Shown piece by piece: positions 9,657 through 54,723 of a stretch of DNA of 64,000 bases; the stretch's first letter is position 1, and each line of letters starts with the position of its first letter. Source of the DNA: Enterocloster aldenensis (lineage in GTDB: Bacteria; Bacillota; Clostridia; Lachnospirales; Lachnospiraceae); NCBI RefSeq assembly GCF_003434055.1, contig NZ_QVEX01000005.1:248001-312000 (forward strand), written 5' to 3'. The position numbers and the translations under genes are program-made. The notes under the pieces were generated by a model. That model did not search any database and had not been told where the DNA came from. It was given only the letters and a program-made list of their open reading frames with translations.

Positions 9657-9730
9657 GTTTCTGTAGCTCAGCAGGATAGAGCGTCCGCCTCCTAAGCGGA
9701 AGGCCAGCGGTTCGAATCCGCTCAGGAACA
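9657..9730 (+). tRNA. tRNA-Arg, anticodon CCT
   Basis: A complete cloverleaf can be drawn. The acceptor stem is GTTTCTG with CAGGAAC, positions 8-9 are TA, and the D-arm stem is GCTC/GAGC. The anticodon stem TCCGC/GCGGA has loop CTCCTAA, giving anticodon CCT. The T-arm is AGCGG-TTCGAAT-CCGCT and the discriminator base is A. The 3' CCA is not encoded. It reads AGG arginine codons. A rho-independent terminator follows within 10 bp. Confidence 0.96.
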
Positions 9731-22188: not shown

Positions 22189-22359
22189 CTAATAAATCCC
22201 TATTGGAAAACACGAAAATGAAATCCCAAAGCCATTGCTTTGGAACGTTGGGACAATATCCCTGCCAAACATCATTTCCGTATTCTCAGGCTCCGTACAA
22301 TGTTTTATCATGTTAAATTGTGCGGAGCTATCATCAATGCAGAACTTACCAAATAACAT
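22189..22359 (-). CDS. Putative 56-residue leader peptide of the MATE/ABC-F attenuator
   Basis: A short reading frame runs from the ATG at 22359 (ribosome binding site GGAAAGGGTGGG) to a TAG at 22189-22191. It begins MLFGKFCIDDSS and ends FSCFPIGIY, with a Phe/Cys-rich second half. It starts 46 bp after a consensus promoter and stops 30 bp before a terminator hairpin. That layout matches ribosome-mediated attenuation of antibiotic-resistance ABC-F and efflux genes, where a drug-stalled ribosome prevents terminator formation. Whether it is translated, and its function, are inference. Confidence 0.6.
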   Translation of the reverse strand: MLFGKFCIDDSSAQFNMIKHCTEPENTEMMFGRDIVPTFQSNGFGISFSCFPIGIY

Positions 22360-47758: not shown

Positions 47759-47806
47759 ATAAAAAACCCAACGTGGTGCGCATCGCTGAGAGGCGTGTTG
47801 GGTTCT
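47759..47806 (-). terminator. Terminator of gdhA
   Basis: AACCCAAC (47765-47772) and GTTGGGTT (47797-47804) pair perfectly, and the minus strand continues into a run of Ts. It follows the gdhA stop. Confidence 0.85.
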
Positions 47807-49242: not shown

Positions 49243-49282
49243 CTTTAACAAAAAGTATAACAAGTTAATTTGTTAAAGTCAA
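49243..49282 (-). promoter_or_regulatory. gdhA promoter with flanking inverted repeat
   Basis: On the minus strand TTGACT (49277-49282) and TATACT (49254-49259) lie 17 bp apart. CTTTAACAAA (49243-49252) and TTTGTTAAAG (49269-49278) form a perfect 10-bp inverted repeat with a 16-bp spacer that brackets the -10 box. The -35 overlaps the slipin stop codon. Confidence 0.7.
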
Positions 49283-50397
49283 TGTTTTTCTGTTCCGGCC
49301 AGCTCCGCAAGCTGCTCCAGCACTCCCTTTCCGCCGTTCAGGGTAATGTTCCCCACCTTATCGCAGATGCGCTCCAGATATTCCATCTCCTTGAGTTTGA
49401 ACAATGTCCTGTTCTCATCCATGAGTTTCGCCGTGTTTAAAAGGCTTCTGGTGGAAGCCACCTCCTCCCTTCTCATGATTACATTTGCCTGGGCCTTTTT
49501 TTCTGCAACCAGTACCGTGTTCATGATTTCCCGTATTTCCCCGGGAAGGATGATATCCTTGATGCCTGCGCCGGTAATCTCCACACAGTACTCCTCCTGA
49601 TACTCCTTCAGACGCTCCAGCACATAGGCCCCGATTTCCTCCTTCTGTGCCAGAAGCTCATCTAAACGGTATCTTCCCACATACTCCCTCAGCTTTAGCT
49701 GCACGCAGGTATAGATCTGGGACGCCGCGCCCTCCACCTGACGGACCAGCTTTTCCGGGTTCACAATCCTGTAATTGCAGATGACATTCAGGCGGACCGC
49801 CACCTTATCCGCAGTAAGGATTTCCTGGCCGGAGATATCCAGCTGCTGGATCTTCATATTGAATATCTTACAGGTCACCTCTTTCCCATAATTCCAGAAA
49901 TAATAAGTTCCTGTCTCCAGACGTTTTTCATACCGGTTATCATAATAAAGCAGCCCTATCTCCCCGTCCTTGACAATGATTTTCTTATAGTACCTGGCAG
50001 GCATCAGATCCATATAGAACCTGGGCAGGCTCTCCTCCATGCACGGCCTGGTGATGTCTATGTTCCGGAATTCATTTTCCTCAAATACATTCCAGAATAA
50101 GGACTCAGGCTTTGTCAGGACCTCCCTGTACGCCTTATTCACAAACCGCAGGGCAATGCACTCATCCGGCAGCACATTCTTCACCACCCGGTCCGCAAAC
50201 CCCTTATCCCCCATCAGTATTTCCTCGGGAATACCGCAGGTCCTGACCTCGCCGGTCATGGGAACTATATCCACCTCATACCCCAGGGCTTTTACAAAGG
50301 AATATCTGCCCGCGGTCAGAAGCTTTATGAACTTTCCATTCTTTGTAAGGTAACCGCATTCCTGGTCCTTAATTATATAGTGTCTGACAATACCCAT
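49279..50397 (-). CDS. SPFH/band-7 (slipin) domain protein
   Basis: This 372-residue protein contains an SPFH domain (about residues 140-290). The segment LDISGQEILTADKVAVRLNVICNYRI and the following AASQIYTCVQLKLREYVGRYRL are typical of slipins. The N-terminal 130 residues resemble an added module, and no clear membrane anchor is visible. SPFH proteins form ring assemblies at membranes. It lies downstream of rtcB on the same strand, separated by about 535 bp that holds a YrlA-like RNA, and is read as part of the same RNA-repair module. Confidence 0.87.
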   Translation of the reverse strand: MGIVRHYIIKDQECGYLTKNGKFIKLLTAGRYSFVKALGYEVDIVPMTGEVRTCGIPEEILMGDKGFADRVVKNVLPDECIALRFVNKAYREVLTKPESLFWNVFEENEFRNIDITRPCMEESLPRFYMDLMPARYYKKIIVKDGEIGLLYYDNRYEKRLETGTYYFWNYGKEVTCKIFNMKIQQLDISGQEILTADKVAVRLNVICNYRIVNPEKLVRQVEGAASQIYTCVQLKLREYVGRYRLDELLAQKEEIGAYVLERLKEYQEEYCVEITGAGIKDIILPGEIREIMNTVLVAEKKAQANVIMRREEVASTRSLLNTAKLMDENRTLFKLKEMEYLERICDKVGNITLNGGKGVLEQLAELAGTEKH

Positions 50398-50716
50398 CTT
50401 GTTTTATCCTCCCTTCAGACGCTGATTATCATGCAAAAATGTCATTTAACATGACAGTTTATCCTAATTAGTAAAAGAAAAGGCCGTGCCTGGTCCCATA
50501 TCCATGTCGTGCGGGTCTGTCCTTAAGCAGGAAGCCGGCTAAGGGCAGGCAGGGCAGGATGGAACTAATCTCCCTGCCTGGTCCTTAAGGGGCTGCCTCC
50601 GGTATCCGGACAGACACTGGCCGGACATGGACTGCCTTTCCCGGTGCCTGCATGTGCATCCACATGCAGCCCACGGGTGGGGCAAAGCCCAGGCCTTCCT
50701 TTTCCCTTTGGGTGAG
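50398..50716 (-). other. Structured gene-free leader between the YrlA-like RNA and the slipin gene
   Basis: I see no open reading frame with a good start in this stretch. A perfect 9-bp hairpin (CTGCATGTG with CACATGCAG, 50648-50669) and a GGCAGG/CCTGCC pairing make it strongly structured. It may be the 3' part of the RNA or a leader of the slipin mRNA. Confidence 0.45.
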
Positions 50717-50850
50717 AAACACATTTTTTGTGTTTTCCTAATGATTGCTATACCACTTAGCTATGCAGCGGAACAGTTCTGCCCCGGTGCAGCAGGATTC
50801 GAACCCGCGTCACATCATTCCATCATGAACAAAAGCAGATTGACGGCATA
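50717..50850 (-). ncRNA. YrlA-like bacterial Y RNA (circularly permuted tRNA mimic)
   Basis: On the minus strand, in order: half of an outer stem AATGAT (50814-50819), a 5-base spacer like a variable loop, and a T-arm GCGGG-TTCGAAT-CCTGC (50792-50808). Next comes an acceptor-like stem capped by loop GAAC (50764-50791), then TA like U8/A9 (50762-50763). A D-arm GCTA-AGTGGTA-TAGC (50747-50761) and the other outer-stem half ATCATT (50740-50745) complete it. This is a tRNA opened at the anticodon and closed at the acceptor end, as in YrlA Y RNAs, which sit near rtcB. A 7-bp hairpin with an A5 loop follows at 50717-50735. Outer boundaries are approximate. Confidence 0.8.
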
Positions 50851-50932
50851 CCCTGCGCCAGGGGCGCGGGCACCGGCGGGCGCCGGGGCAGGTTCGCTGC
50901 CCAACGGAATGCCCTGCCTGATATCAGCCTGC

Positions 50933-52168
50933 CTACCCTTTAACAACTCCAATGGTCTTAAGCCGTTTGACCGGAACCACCAAATCCTGCTGGCAGTCCA
51001 TGACCTCTTCTATGTCCTTATAGGCAAAACGGCTCTCTTCCGCTACGTCCGCCTTACCTTTCTTTCCCAGGATGACGCCCTGTTTCTGCAGATCCAGTAT
51101 TACCTCCTCACAGGAAAATGCCGCCATGGCGCCTTTTCTGGAGTAGCGGCGTCCGGCTCCATGGGAGGAAGAGCAGAAGCTCTCAGGATTCCCTTTTCCC
51201 ATGACCACATAGCTGTAGGAACCCATGGCTCCCGGAATCACTGCCAATTCCCCGTTCCCTGCCCGGACAGCCCCTTTCCTGTGCACCCATACATCCTTAT
51301 CATAATGGTGTTCAAGGGCTGCATAGTTGTGATGGCAGTTGATATCCCCGGAAAACTCCAGATTAAAATCCGTATACTTACCAATGTATTTCTCCAGCAC
51401 CGCCTTTACGGCCAGCATCATCTTTTCCCGGTTCTCCCTTGCAAAATCCATGGACAGCTGCATCCAGTTCAGGTACTGCTTTCCCTCATGGCTGTCCGTG
51501 GGCAGGAATGCCAGGCGGTATTCATCCGGCACATCGCTGTACCATCTCCGGTTCAGCTCCCTTGCCTTGTTGTGGAAATAATCGCACACCGACTTGCCTA
51601 TATGGCGGCTTCCCGAATGAATCATCACACAGAGGTATCCCTCCTCATCCTCCTGAAGCTCTATGAAGTGGTTTCCGCCGCCTAACGTCCCAATCTGGTA
51701 AAATCCTGCTTCCAACTGTCCAAGCAGCTCCCCGTCCTCCTCATAGCGTTCCAGCTCATTGTATGCATTCTCCATGGTATAGCAGGGCATCTCCGTCTTA
51801 TGGTGGGCAAATCCCACCGGAACATTTCTCATGATATCCCCTATCATGGCCTGTATTAGGGATCCGTTGCCGGTCATGATTTCCTTTATATCAGCCACCC
51901 TTATGTTGGTCTGCATATAGGCCATACCGCAGCCGATATCCACGCCCACCGCATTGGGTATCACCACTCCCTCGGCGGCAATGACGCCTCCTATGGGCAT
52001 TCCCATACCCGCATGGGTGTCCGGCATCAGGCTGACCCATTTATGAAGGAACGGAAGCCTTGACAGATGATATGCCTGTTCCATGCAGCTCTTTTCCAGC
52101 GAACCGCGTTCCTTTAACCATACCCTTACCGGAAACCTCATATTTTCTTTCTCATACATCACAAACAT
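50933..52168 (-). CDS. rtcB: RtcB family RNA-splicing ligase
   Basis: This 411-residue protein has the size and motif order of E. coli RtcB. D76 and C80 in VGVDIGCGM, H167 in GGGNHFIE, H184 in IHSGSRH and the HH pair at 279-280 (NCHHNYA) bind manganese. H336 in SSSHGAGR is the expected guanylylated histidine, and HRKGA is also conserved. It should join RNA ends with 2',3'-cyclic phosphate and 5'-OH using GTP, as in tRNA or rRNA repair. I chose the ATG at 52168, behind AAGGAAG. The YrlA-like RNA lies 3' on the same strand, and WYL regulator genes diverge from it. Confidence 0.94.
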   Translation of the reverse strand: MFVMYEKENMRFPVRVWLKERGSLEKSCMEQAYHLSRLPFLHKWVSLMPDTHAGMGMPIGGVIAAEGVVIPNAVGVDIGCGMAYMQTNIRVADIKEIMTGNGSLIQAMIGDIMRNVPVGFAHHKTEMPCYTMENAYNELERYEEDGELLGQLEAGFYQIGTLGGGNHFIELQEDEEGYLCVMIHSGSRHIGKSVCDYFHNKARELNRRWYSDVPDEYRLAFLPTDSHEGKQYLNWMQLSMDFARENREKMMLAVKAVLEKYIGKYTDFNLEFSGDINCHHNYAALEHHYDKDVWVHRKGAVRAGNGELAVIPGAMGSYSYVVMGKGNPESFCSSSHGAGRRYSRKGAMAAFSCEEVILDLQKQGVILGKKGKADVAEESRFAYKDIEEVMDCQQDLVVPVKRLKTIGVVKG

Positions 52169-52277
52169 ATATCTCACTTCCTTTCAGTTCCTATTTGTAA
52201 TCCTCATATATTTGCGTATGTATTTTGCTTACACCCATATGATATCCGGTCCAGGCCCGGAAATCATTTAAAAAAAG

Positions 52278-52404: not shown

Positions 52405-53652
52405 ATGGCTGAATTTCAGGAATTAATCAAGAATTTTGACAGGATACGTGATTATATGCGGCAGTTCTACATCTATGGTTTTAAGGTCAGGAACGATTTC
52501 CAGGATAAAAGTCCCAGGACATATGATAATGAACGGCGCAGGATTGAAAGCTGGCTGGCAGATTATACCCAGTCAGACTACACGCCAAAAGGCAAGCATG
52601 TGTATATCAATGTGGACAGCAAGACCATTTCCCAGAATCCCCTTTACGCTGCCTGGAAGTCCAAAAGCTTTACAGACAATGACCTGATGCTGCATTTTTT
52701 CATCCTGGACCTGCTTCACGCTGTCCCTGATGGCATGACGGCTGCCTCGCTTTGTGATGAGATTTCCAGGTCCTACGGGGTGGTGTTTGACAGCCAGACC
52801 GTCCGCCTTAAGTTAAAGGAGTATGAAAACCTGGGCATCCTGCGCTCCGGGAAATCAGGCAGGAACCTGGTCTACGCCCTGTCCCCCCGGCTTCCCGTGG
52901 ATGACGCGGCGTGGTCCCATCTTATGGACGCCATGGAATTCTTCCAGGAGGCAGCGCCCTTTGGTTTTATCGGAAGCACCATCCTGGACCGGGAAGACCG
53001 CTGCAACAGCCTGTTCCAGTTCAAGCACCACTTCATCGTCCATACCCTGGAAGACGGTGTCCTGGCCCATATCCTGACCGCCATCCACGACCGGCGCATG
53101 ATTACATATGAAAATAAAAGCAGCCGCAGCAACGCAGTAAGCACCCACACCTGCGTTCCCCTCAAAATCCTTGTCAGCACCCAGACGGGCCGCAGGTACC
53201 TGTGCCTCTACCATCCTGAGCTGCGCAGGTTCAGCAATGCCCGCCTGGACTCCATACAGAAGGTGGTCTCCGGTGAACCATATGAAGCATACAGCAAGGT
53301 ACTGAGTGACCTGGAGCAGAATCAGGGAAAATGCTGGGGCGTATCCTTTGGAAACGGGCGGAACCGCCTGCAGGAGGTCTGCATCAAACTCCGCATTGAC
53401 GAAGAAAAAGAACCTTATATCCTGAACCGCCTCTACCGCGAGGGCCGGGGCGGCCAGGTCATGAAAATACGGGAAAACGAATACCTGTACAGCGGTATGT
53501 TTTTTGATACCAATGAAATGCTGTCCTGGATCAAGACATTTACAGGAAGGATCCTGGACATACAGGGAACGGACCAGTTCTCCATTGCAAAGATAACCCA
53601 TGACTGGGAAAAGATGTATCAGATGTATTGCGGTGCAGATGTCCAGCCGTAA
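52405..53652 (+). CDS. WYL-domain transcriptional regulator (first of pair)
   Basis: This 415-residue protein has an N-terminal winged-helix-like region (about 85-165, with AASLCDEISRSYGVVFDSQTVRLKLKEY in part) and a WYL domain from about residue 215, with RRYLCLYHPELRRFSNARLDSI as the WYL-type core. WYL proteins sense nucleic acids or nucleotide ligands and control stress and defence genes. It diverges from rtcB and is followed by a second WYL gene 45 bp downstream. It probably regulates the rtcB-RNA-slipin genes. Confidence 0.87.
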   Translation: MAEFQELIKNFDRIRDYMRQFYIYGFKVRNDFQDKSPRTYDNERRRIESWLADYTQSDYTPKGKHVYINVDSKTISQNPLYAAWKSKSFTDNDLMLHFFILDLLHAVPDGMTAASLCDEISRSYGVVFDSQTVRLKLKEYENLGILRSGKSGRNLVYALSPRLPVDDAAWSHLMDAMEFFQEAAPFGFIGSTILDREDRCNSLFQFKHHFIVHTLEDGVLAHILTAIHDRRMITYENKSSRSNAVSTHTCVPLKILVSTQTGRRYLCLYHPELRRFSNARLDSIQKVVSGEPYEAYSKVLSDLEQNQGKCWGVSFGNGRNRLQEVCIKLRIDEEKEPYILNRLYREGRGGQVMKIRENEYLYSGMFFDTNEMLSWIKTFTGRILDIQGTDQFSIAKITHDWEKMYQMYCGADVQP

Positions 53653-53697
53653 AGATGCCCTAACAGGCTCCAATCCATCAGAAGGAAGGTGAAAGAC

Positions 53698-54723
53698 TTG
53701 GAATTATTTGATAAAATATACGGCTGCTATTACCATATCATCCGCCGCATGCTGAACCAGGCCGCGGATCATCCCCTTACCAGACAGGATATGGAGGACA
53801 TATGCAGGACCCTGGGATTTCAGGAAAGCGCCCTTGCCATCCTTCCCAAGATAAAGGACGGCACATGGCCCTTATTCCAGGAAAATGGCCTCCGCACCTA
53901 CACGTCCCGGCTTCACACCCCGCCCTGTCCCCTGCCCCTGACCAGCCTACAGAAAGCCTGGCTGCGTTCCCTTCTGTCAGACCCCAGGATCCATCTGTTT
54001 TTAGACGAAACGGAACAAGCCGGCCTGGAACAGCTCCTTGCGGACACCCAGCCCCTATATAATGAAAGGGACTTCTATTATTTTGACAGATATAAGGACG
54101 GGGACCCTTACGACTCACCGGAATACAGGGAACATTTTCACATAATCCTGACCGCACTAAGGGAACACCGGATCCTGCTAACTGCCTATGAGGGCAAAAA
54201 AGGGCGCACCCACACCTTCGAGGTACTCCCTTACCAGCTTCAGTATTCTTCCAAGGATGACAAGTTCCGCCTATGCTGTCTCCGGCACAGCCGCGGCCGT
54301 TTCTGCCGCAACACACTGTTAAACCTGAGCCGCATCAAACATTGCCGCCTGTCACCCGAACCGCCTGTCACTGTCACTGACGGCGTACATACACTTGAAT
54401 CATTCCGTTTTAAGCCTGTGCAGAAAGCCCCGGAACCAGTCCTTCTTAAAATCAGAGGCGAGCGCAACTCCCTGGAGCGGTGCATGCTCCACTTTGCCAA
54501 CTATGAAAAGCACACGGAATATGACGAGGACTGCAAATGCTGGCTCTGCTCCATTTACTATGACCTGGCAGATGAAACAGAACTTCTTATCGACATCCTT
54601 TCCTTCGGCCCGGTGGTACAGGTACTGGGGCCAAAATCCTTTGTGCGGCAGGTGCGGGACAGGGTGGTGAGACAGCATGAATTGCTTTATGGGGTGGTGG
54701 GGATTGAAGGTTGCGGGGGGTGA
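53698..54723 (+). CDS. WYL-domain protein (second of pair)
   Basis: This 341-residue protein has a shorter N-terminal region and a WYL domain, with FRLCCLRHSRGRFCRNTLLNLSRI as its core. I chose the TTG at 53698, because AAGGAAGG lies at proper distance; the GTG at 53689 is too close. Paired WYL genes often form hetero-oligomers. A giant foldback begins 12 bp after its stop. Confidence 0.84.
   Translation: MELFDKIYGCYYHIIRRMLNQAADHPLTRQDMEDICRTLGFQESALAILPKIKDGTWPLFQENGLRTYTSRLHTPPCPLPLTSLQKAWLRSLLSDPRIHLFLDETEQAGLEQLLADTQPLYNERDFYYFDRYKDGDPYDSPEYREHFHIILTALREHRILLTAYEGKKGRTHTFEVLPYQLQYSSKDDKFRLCCLRHSRGRFCRNTLLNLSRIKHCRLSPEPPVTVTDGVHTLESFRFKPVQKAPEPVLLKIRGERNSLERCMLHFANYEKHTEYDEDCKCWLCSIYYDLADETELLIDILSFGPVVQVLGPKSFVRQVRDRVVRQHELLYGVVGIEGCGG

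Follow-up and report, generated by a model that had tools for sequence, protein, structure and literature searches.

On the minus strand of the window (the whole 64,000-nucleotide stretch of Enterocloster aldenensis DNA that was analyzed), a tRNA-like domain in permuted order lies between rtcB and a gene encoding a slipin. Comparison with related loci shows a predicted permuted tRNA fold in which the residues of the tRNA elbow are kept. We read this element as the tRNA-mimic domain of a slipin-linked RNA, as yet without a name, which may dock repair factors that bind the tRNA elbow; we put the probability of this reading at about one half. The structure is well supported; the function is what we infer. 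The predicted RNA genes of this family precede slipin on its 5′ side and share its strand, in tRNA-damage and RNA-repair loci. Features of the window are collected in Table 1.

Table 1. Features of the permuted tRNA-like element and its surroundings (positions in the window; elements of minus-strand features are given in the 5′ to 3′ direction)
Feature	Position	Strand	Basis
Permuted tRNA-like (YrlA-like) domain, core of the finding	50736-50822	minus	R3 53.4 bits, Rfam YrlA 25.9 bits, pair counts
Anticodon-stem-like half ATGAT, partner 50741-50745	50818-50814	minus	sequence and pair counts
Variable loop GTGAC, 5 nt	50813-50809	minus	sequence reading
T-arm GCGGG-TTCGAAT-CCTGC, 5 bp, TTCGAAT loop	50808-50792	minus	sequence and pair counts
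Capped acceptor-like hairpin: 4 bp, C.C mismatch, 7 bp, GAAC loop	50791-50764	minus	sequence, pair counts, fold
TA at U8-A9 position	50763-50762	minus	invariant in 11/11 alignment rows
D-arm GCTA-AGTGGTA-TAGC, 4 bp, GG in loop	50761-50747	minus	11-row alignment
Single base A between D-arm and half stem	50746	minus	sequence reading
Anticodon-stem-like half ATCAT	50745-50741	minus	sequence and pair counts
3′ flanking hairpin AAACACA-AAAAA-TGTGTTT	50735-50717	minus	sequence; folded as hairpin
Conserved 5′ block GGTGCC...GGTATGCCG	50844-50874	minus	alignment of 11
Conserved 3′ block GGGAAAAGGAA	50706-50696	minus	alignment of 11, not in every row
Conserved 3′ block GGCAGTC	50636-50630	minus	alignment of 11, not in every row
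Conserved 3′ block GGATACC	50607-50601	minus	alignment of 11, not in every row
Intergenic stretch expected to hold the whole RNA, 535 nt	50398-50932	minus	flanking ORFs
Slipin (Band 7/SPFH), stomatin/HflK-like	49279-50397	minus	PF01145, 4.2e-27
RtcB RNA ligase	50933-52177	minus	PF01139, 5.6e-112
Divergent gene, no Pfam family	52405-53652	plus	Pfam scan
WYL-like regulator, weak	53689-54723	plus	PF13280, 4.9e-4, 20.5 bits vs cut-off 21.8

The permuted tRNA-like fold and its comparative support

A preliminary description of this DNA had read a tRNA cut open at the anticodon from the minus strand, and this geometry was borne out by the order of the elements, the MFE fold of the core, a covariance match across phyla, and pair counts. 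The stability of the single sequence was ordinary (z-scores of -1.3 and -1.9 in two folding tests); since these values are unremarkable, proof of the structure rests on comparison. The domain was not recognized as a tRNA: ARAGORN and Rfam (at gathering thresholds) reported a sole tRNA in the window, near position 9657. It has no anticodon loop, and its acceptor-like stem has neither a CCA nor a free end.

Relatives were fetched with the window's slipin, and the best 80 of 322 loci were taken as L001 to L080. The first ten are clostridial (with titles such as Lachnospiraceae bacterium, Clostridium citroniae, and Clostridia bacterium), L011 is titled Oscillospiraceae, and L012 to L080 are Bacteroidota of various groups by title, with L013 titled only 'bacterium'. 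Three covariance models were used: (i) R1, modeling the tRNA-like unit, with genome G003 included in its training; (ii) R2, modeling a domain 5′ of the unit, from 28 Bacteroidota loci; and (iii) R3, again modeling the unit, trained on Bacteroidota alone with no clostridial sequence. The Bacteroidota alignments (14, 28, and 28 sequences) were hand-picked subsets of the 69 loci L012 to L080.

In the alignment of the 11 clostridial sequences (the window and L001 to L010), 93.8% of cells pair, and both-side changes were counted in 25 cells compared with 8.6 in shuffles. The acceptor-like helix displayed both-side changes in all five of its pairs. The D-arm is constant in these rows apart from a single column of the loop and a G inserted in some sequences, and is therefore uninformative on pairing there. 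Positions U8, A9, A14, G15, G18, G19, A21, C48, T54, T55, C56, A58, and C61 (tRNA numbering by our own assignment) are invariant. For the 28 Bacteroidota units, 96.8% of cells pair and 155 cells changed on both sides, against 42.6 in shuffles; such changes with pairing kept were seen in 16 of 19 pairs and covered all four helices, while controls with a slid register collapsed. Lack of covariation had been named beforehand as an outcome that would speak against the fold, and the reverse was found. RNAalifold, run on nothing but a MAFFT alignment of 28 Bacteroidota sequences, returned the same permuted fold with four of the five anticodon-stem pairs. A search with a covariance model from related genomes had also been suggested; the Bacteroidota-trained R3 recovered the window with E = 4.2e-13 (score in Table 1) and matched each of L001 to L010 at E = 1e-11 or lower.

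The units might instead be remnants of a tandem tRNA array, in the form of decayed tRNAs that happen to have survived. Real tRNA arrays do occur near some Bacteroidota loci, and ordinary tandem tRNAs scored up to 47.7 bits with R1 (L106) and 28.4 bits with R3 (L010). Since the covariance models also score tandem tRNAs, we wrote a stricter parser that requires the whole geometry. Throughout L001 to L080 it returned 56 units on the slipin strand and none on the opposite strand; five dinucleotide-block shuffles, with one strand scanned, gave 0, 0, 1, 0, and 0 units. All but one of the 56 lie at most 900 nt 5′ of slipin, spread over 51 of the 80 loci, and the remaining one (L057, position 3781), the only ordinary tRNA that the parser met, is a tRNA according to ARAGORN. 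When 15 tRNA-rich loci were parsed, the matches were the six units before slipin and nothing else. ARAGORN, applied to all 80 loci, overlapped the unit in L053 alone among the 76 loci with a unit in place; there, its tRNA call spans two modules. The Rfam tRNA model, run on ten loci, slightly exceeded its cut-off at L077 5432-5496, L077 5505-5558, and L026 5613-5682. The pair counts, with covariation on both sides in all four helices, refute decay for the family, though single diverged members may fit it; for the element as such we regard it as hardly credible.

A second alternative takes the topology at face value: as in some algae and archaea, the unit could be a permuted tRNA gene, whose transcript RtcB circularizes at the anticodon and whose acceptor is then cut to yield a working tRNA. 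Permuted tRNA genes (PMC3978253) share with the window's unit the 3′ half placed first and the joint at the anticodon. The topology is right, RtcB is encoded next door, and in three loci (L013, L074, and L077) the acceptors have 7-8 bp with linkers of 16-20 nt. In contrast to a tRNA, the window's acceptor is a 4-bp stem followed by a mismatch and a GAAC-capped stem of 7 bp, without CCA and short of a 7-bp acceptor; acceptors of 5-7 bp, usually capped by short loops, form the majority among the 61 parsed units, and processing is only hypothetical here. We consider this explanation very improbable for the element.

The units with long acceptors are located at L013 5339-5421, L074 5379-5464, and L077 5376-5462; the sequence TCCA comes directly after the 3′ half in L013. 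These three could be true permuted tRNA genes.

Linkage to slipin and rtcB

The unit was found on the 5′ side of slipin and on the same strand in 76 of the 80 loci, at a distance of 248-637 nt (median 431) measured to where the slipin match begins. The four loci in which R1 detected no unit at E ≤ 0.002 are L011, L040, L056, and L066; of these, L040 has the 5′ domain and L066 offers only 546 nt upstream. The ten loci L001 to L010 all have the order rtcB, RNA, slipin. For L012 to L080, tblastn with the window's RtcB located a relative on the downstream side of slipin in 50 of the 69 and only upstream in three (L058, L062, and L073). No rtcB was found by this search in 16 of the 80 loci, all within L012 to L080, and some of these contigs are short. 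The association with rtcB stated in the preliminary description thus holds for the RNA-repair neighborhood, but the steadier neighbor is slipin, as the unit keeps its place wherever rtcB is.

Since L001 to L080 had been picked by slipin, tests independent of slipin were made on whole genomes. A first set sampled the phylum Bacteroidota, to which G033 (Chryseolinea, source of L036) belongs, evenly with 198 genomes. R2 matched eight of them, and slipin was found at E ≤ 1e-70 in seven. Each of these seven has an R2 match 385-718 nt upstream of slipin, with contig and strand in common; at least one of them, G033, was part of R2 training. Two weaker slipin matches (E of 1e-21 to 1e-23) among the 198 genomes came without R2. 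Conversely, one R2 match (G479, L126 3137-3181; 45 nt, 24.5 bits) came without a slipin match in the genome, and the surrounding 6 kb contained no R1 unit.

A second set consisted of the 299 genomes in the family of G003 (L004, Clostridium asparagiforme). Slipin was present in 16 of them and the unit in 15 of the 16. For 14, it lies 251-526 nt upstream of slipin; one of these is G003, used for R1, and two score only 24-27 bits, with no tRNA called there by ARAGORN. ARAGORN likewise called no tRNA at the three weakest units of the set. In G331, the unit lies 2.9 kb upstream of slipin, beside rtcB, and in G074 slipin is present with no unit detected. Phage records gave no slipin match at E ≤ 1e-15. 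Comparison thus shows slipin as the steadier putative partner, with linkage in both groups.

In G331, the RNA and slipin are separated by an ORF that is at least 396 aa long and had no Pfam match (L118 1883-3072, and L124).

R1 on its own was unspecific, as it matched 265 of the 299 genomes at E ≤ 0.001. Among 30 loci fetched from that scan, ARAGORN identified ordinary tRNAs in 12; the remaining 18 comprise 13 that adjoin slipin and/or a close rtcB and five (L099, L100, L103, L105, and L108) that do not.

Four of these five (L099, L100, L103, and L108; positions ~1501-1575) form a second YrlA-like group with the flanking motif CAGCTA...TTTACT(T/G)C. The units in L099, L103, and L108 adjoin an ORF of one family, as judged by its N-terminus; it is at least 468-469 aa long and had no Pfam match in the two cases scanned (L099 and L103). 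L099 and L108 also have a distant RtcB, and in L103 both divergent genes of the window have relatives. The group possibly marks another Ro-free Y RNA partner.

A constant position before slipin is equally well accommodated by the main rival to the docking domain: a cis-acting leader, i.e. a mimic in the slipin mRNA leader that is read by a tRNA-binding factor, or reads out damaged-tRNA status, and sets slipin expression. Operator tRNA mimics set gene expression in this way. The unit tracks slipin when rtcB moves, and in Citrobacter a related partial element lies between slipin and a sigma54-like site next to rtcR. Against a leader, a simple scan of the window found no terminator-like site on the RNA strand from the unit to slipin, although other mechanisms are possible, and the several modules in tandem in some Bacteroidota exceed what an operator needs. 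We regard a leader function as possible but doubtful.

The Citrobacter locus (L129) reads rtcR (on the opposite strand), the sigma54-like site, a T-arm with acceptor hairpin, slipin, and RlaP. An Escherichia coli locus (L127) is arranged like it, with no rtcR listed in the stretch. For both, R1 and R2 gave nothing significant, and R3 matched the T-arm and acceptor only, at the non-significant E-values of 0.26 and 0.28; these elements are possible family members. In Burkholderia (L130) and Subdoligranulum (L128), R3 matched upstream of slipin at E of ~1e-4, with 26 bits, which is within the tandem-tRNA range; ARAGORN calls an odd tRNA beside the L130 match. Because of this overlap in scores, the weak matches in L122, L123, L128, and L130 rest on position rather than score.

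In E. coli, the slipin and RlaP locus (L127 7001-8925) lies between yjbD and lysC. At least 80% of a leader-slipin-RlaP query was covered in 1617 of 5426 complete E. coli genomes.

Extent of the RNA and relation to Y RNAs

The tRNA mimic looks like one domain of a longer conserved RNA and does not seem to be a lone Y RNA. The intergenic stretch is free of genes on the minus strand; an unsupported plus-strand ORF crosses it. In Bacteroidota, two hairpins lie 5′ of the unit; 98.6% of their cells pair, and 11 of the 13 pairs display both-side changes, counts that lean towards this register as it came from RNAalifold on the same sequences. Outside its training set, R2 found 38 of 41 Bacteroidota loci at E ≤ 0.03; 37 of these matches lie directly 5′ of an R1 unit, and the other is L040, which has no clear unit. 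Searched in 29 sources (the window and clostridial sequences), R2 fell below E = 1 only in L093, L101, L104, and L095 (E of 0.0036-0.011), with the unit following 29-36 nt further 3′ in each; the remaining 25 sources, including the window, gave no match. Comparison thus shows a separate, conserved and covarying 5′ domain in Bacteroidota with matches in four clostridial relatives. In these four, R2 matches the place equivalent to the window's conserved 5′ block, which is not itself matched; the block is probably the counterpart of the second hairpin of the Bacteroidota domain.

Conserved blocks continue 3′ of the unit in the Bacteroidota alignment as they do in the clostridial one, and in some relatives the sequence at the place of the 3′ hairpin is hairpin-like by eye but different. 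More than one R1 match in place was seen in eight of the 76 loci. The interval first described, 50717-50850, contains the unit and also takes in the 3′ hairpin; the full RNA is probably much longer than this interval.

The flanking blocks GGTGCC, GGGAAA, and GGATACC resemble those of a cobalamin riboswitch, but this identity was dropped as Rfam gave no cobalamin match at E ≤ 10. An inverted repeat, CAGGCAGGG...CCCTGCCTG, at 50531-50596 between the 3′ blocks and slipin was noticed through weak Rfam matches to microRNA families on both strands. A promoter and terminator scan of the window yielded nothing above shuffles.

The nearest Rfam family is YrlA (RF02553), matched at a relaxed threshold at 50742-50816 with E = 0.0033 for 701 bases. 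The score of 25.9 bits falls far below the gathering score of 69 bits, and the match covers positions 23-86 of the 114 in the model, leaving the Ro-binding basal stem unmatched. YrlA was also the best Rfam match for the units of L002 (25.4 bits), L004 (42.9), L006 (38.7), L007 (33.7), and L010 (37.6); the basal stem is unmatched in L002, L006, L007, and L010, whereas L004 aligns over model positions 1-114 with deletions. The YrlA likeness first proposed for the element, and the Rfam search suggested to check it, therefore gave a divided result: the permuted design and the nearest family agree, and the score and the Ro stem do not.

Bacterial Y RNAs have so far been understood as Ro partners. 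An ordinary YrlA RNA with its Ro gene at a distant genomic site would explain the best Rfam matches, and a TROVE domain (PF05731) was indeed found in six of 45 Bacteroidota genomes with slipin (from 46 of the 69 loci, minus L048); in one, G033, it lies on a different contig from the RNA. TROVE was missing from the other 39 and from all ten clostridial genomes searched (those of L001, L002, and L004 to L011, the last without a clear unit). These include the nearest relative, L001 (G001), whose slipin is 97% identical to that of the window. The absence of TROVE largely refutes an ordinary YrlA RNA for the window's group; with all scores below 69 bits and the Ro stem unmatched in the window, we judge it highly unlikely. 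The Ro-independent role anticipated in the preliminary description is supported by the same counts, and comparison shows that the predicted RNA needs no Ro.

YrlA and the present RNA have in common a tRNA-like domain of permuted order that contains a T-arm, a capped acceptor, and a D-arm. Unlike YrlA, the latter has a slipin linkage, a separate conserved 5′ domain, mostly no TROVE gene, no matched Ro stem in the window, and in some Bacteroidota two modules in tandem, perhaps three by eye. YrlA genes can adjoin rtcB (PMC7790460), and the tRNA-like domain of YrlA binds PNPase and is modified by DusA and TruB (PMC8394870). The Salmonella rsr-yrlBA-rtcBA operon, controlled by RtcR, likewise combines RNA-repair genes with a tRNA-like RNA, and in Citrobacter rtcR stands beside the slipin locus; here, however, slipin takes the place of Rsr/Ro next to the RNA, and WYL-like genes, not RtcR, stand beside the window's rtcB. 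A permuted (two-piece) tmRNA also has its T-arm before the 5′ half of the acceptor, but the window's unit has a full D-arm and an anticodon-like stem. Identity with tmRNA was dropped, as only L011 gave a weak match (14.2 bits). No model for the RNA family was found in Rfam 15, and among the papers listed in literature searches none evidently linked slipin with a tRNA-like RNA, although an earlier mention in the YrlA literature is possible.

Gene neighborhood and proposed role

The window's RtcB aligned to Pyrococcus horikoshii RtcB (1uc2) with conserved active-site His and Cys motifs kept. The slipin, with its Band 7 domain, matched PH stomatin at 3.6e-19 and resembles stomatin, QmcA, and HflK; no membrane helix was seen by eye at its N-terminus. 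A relative of the divergent gene at 52405-53652 stands beside rtcB in seven of L001 to L010 and in L011. Ten ORFs picked from three Bacteroidota loci were scanned with Pfam. They comprise (i) in L027, Thg1, an AAA_33 kinase-like protein, and an exonuclease-like protein; (ii) in L045, two RlaP and a HEPN_AbiU2 protein; (iii) in L036, a pseudouridine synthase; and (iv) three ORFs without family, one in L027 and two in L036. The partner genes (RtcB, and in some relatives RlaP, Thg1, and RtcR) point to tRNA repair. Damaged tRNAs switch on the RtcR-controlled operon (PMC7790460), a P. aeruginosa SPFH gene lies within the rtc locus (PMC13086221), and rtcB, a slipin, and a tRNA array increase in Anabaena when TrcR is lost (PMC10272220).

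The docking-domain reading would work as follows. The RNA would be transcribed with, or just before, slipin and would present one or more tRNA elbows. With its acceptor capped and its anticodon open, the mimic could be neither aminoacylated nor decoded. The elbow may dock RtcB or its helpers, PNPase, or tRNA-cutting nucleases; the docked proteins would be brought to a slipin-containing complex, and cut tRNAs would be repaired or cleared. In shape the unit matches an RtcB substrate, a tRNA whose anticodon loop is open while the two halves stay together, and judging from its sequence it appears to keep the features seen by readers of the tRNA elbow and to lack those needed for translation. The kept elbow, this topology, and the binding of PNPase by YrlA together favor a docking domain for repair or decay factors, and a direct role as RtcB substrate is weakened by the fact that slipin, not RtcB, is the constant partner.

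More tentatively, the loci may define a new family of long RNAs linked to slipin, in which a conserved 5′ domain is joined to at least one permuted tRNA module. The family would be common to Bacillota and Bacteroidota, and Pseudomonadota, E. coli among them, may have divergent forms of it. Such an RNA might assemble into a ring-shaped RNP free of Ro, with SPFH (slipin) subunits in place of the Ro ring and with mimics that recruit RtcB, RlaP, Thg1, or PNPase to cut tRNAs. If true, a Ro-free, slipin-tied relative would suggest that the use of tRNA-mimic modules reaches beyond Ro; slipins in RNA-repair loci would gain a candidate RNA partner, and the binding partners of Y RNA tRNA mimics would become testable in new organisms, perhaps E. 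coli.

In three flavobacterial loci, tRNA arrays precede slipin (L067 2711-5340, L074 1996-3198, and L077 2063-3822), with 16, 12, and 15 tRNAs by ARAGORN, respectively; they recall the stress-induced trn array of Anabaena (PMC10272220). Two further Rfam matches above gathering lie on the minus strand of the window: an abiF RNA (RF03085) at 47766-47802, directly downstream of a glutamate dehydrogenase gene, and a uup RNA (RF03060) at 22290-22335.
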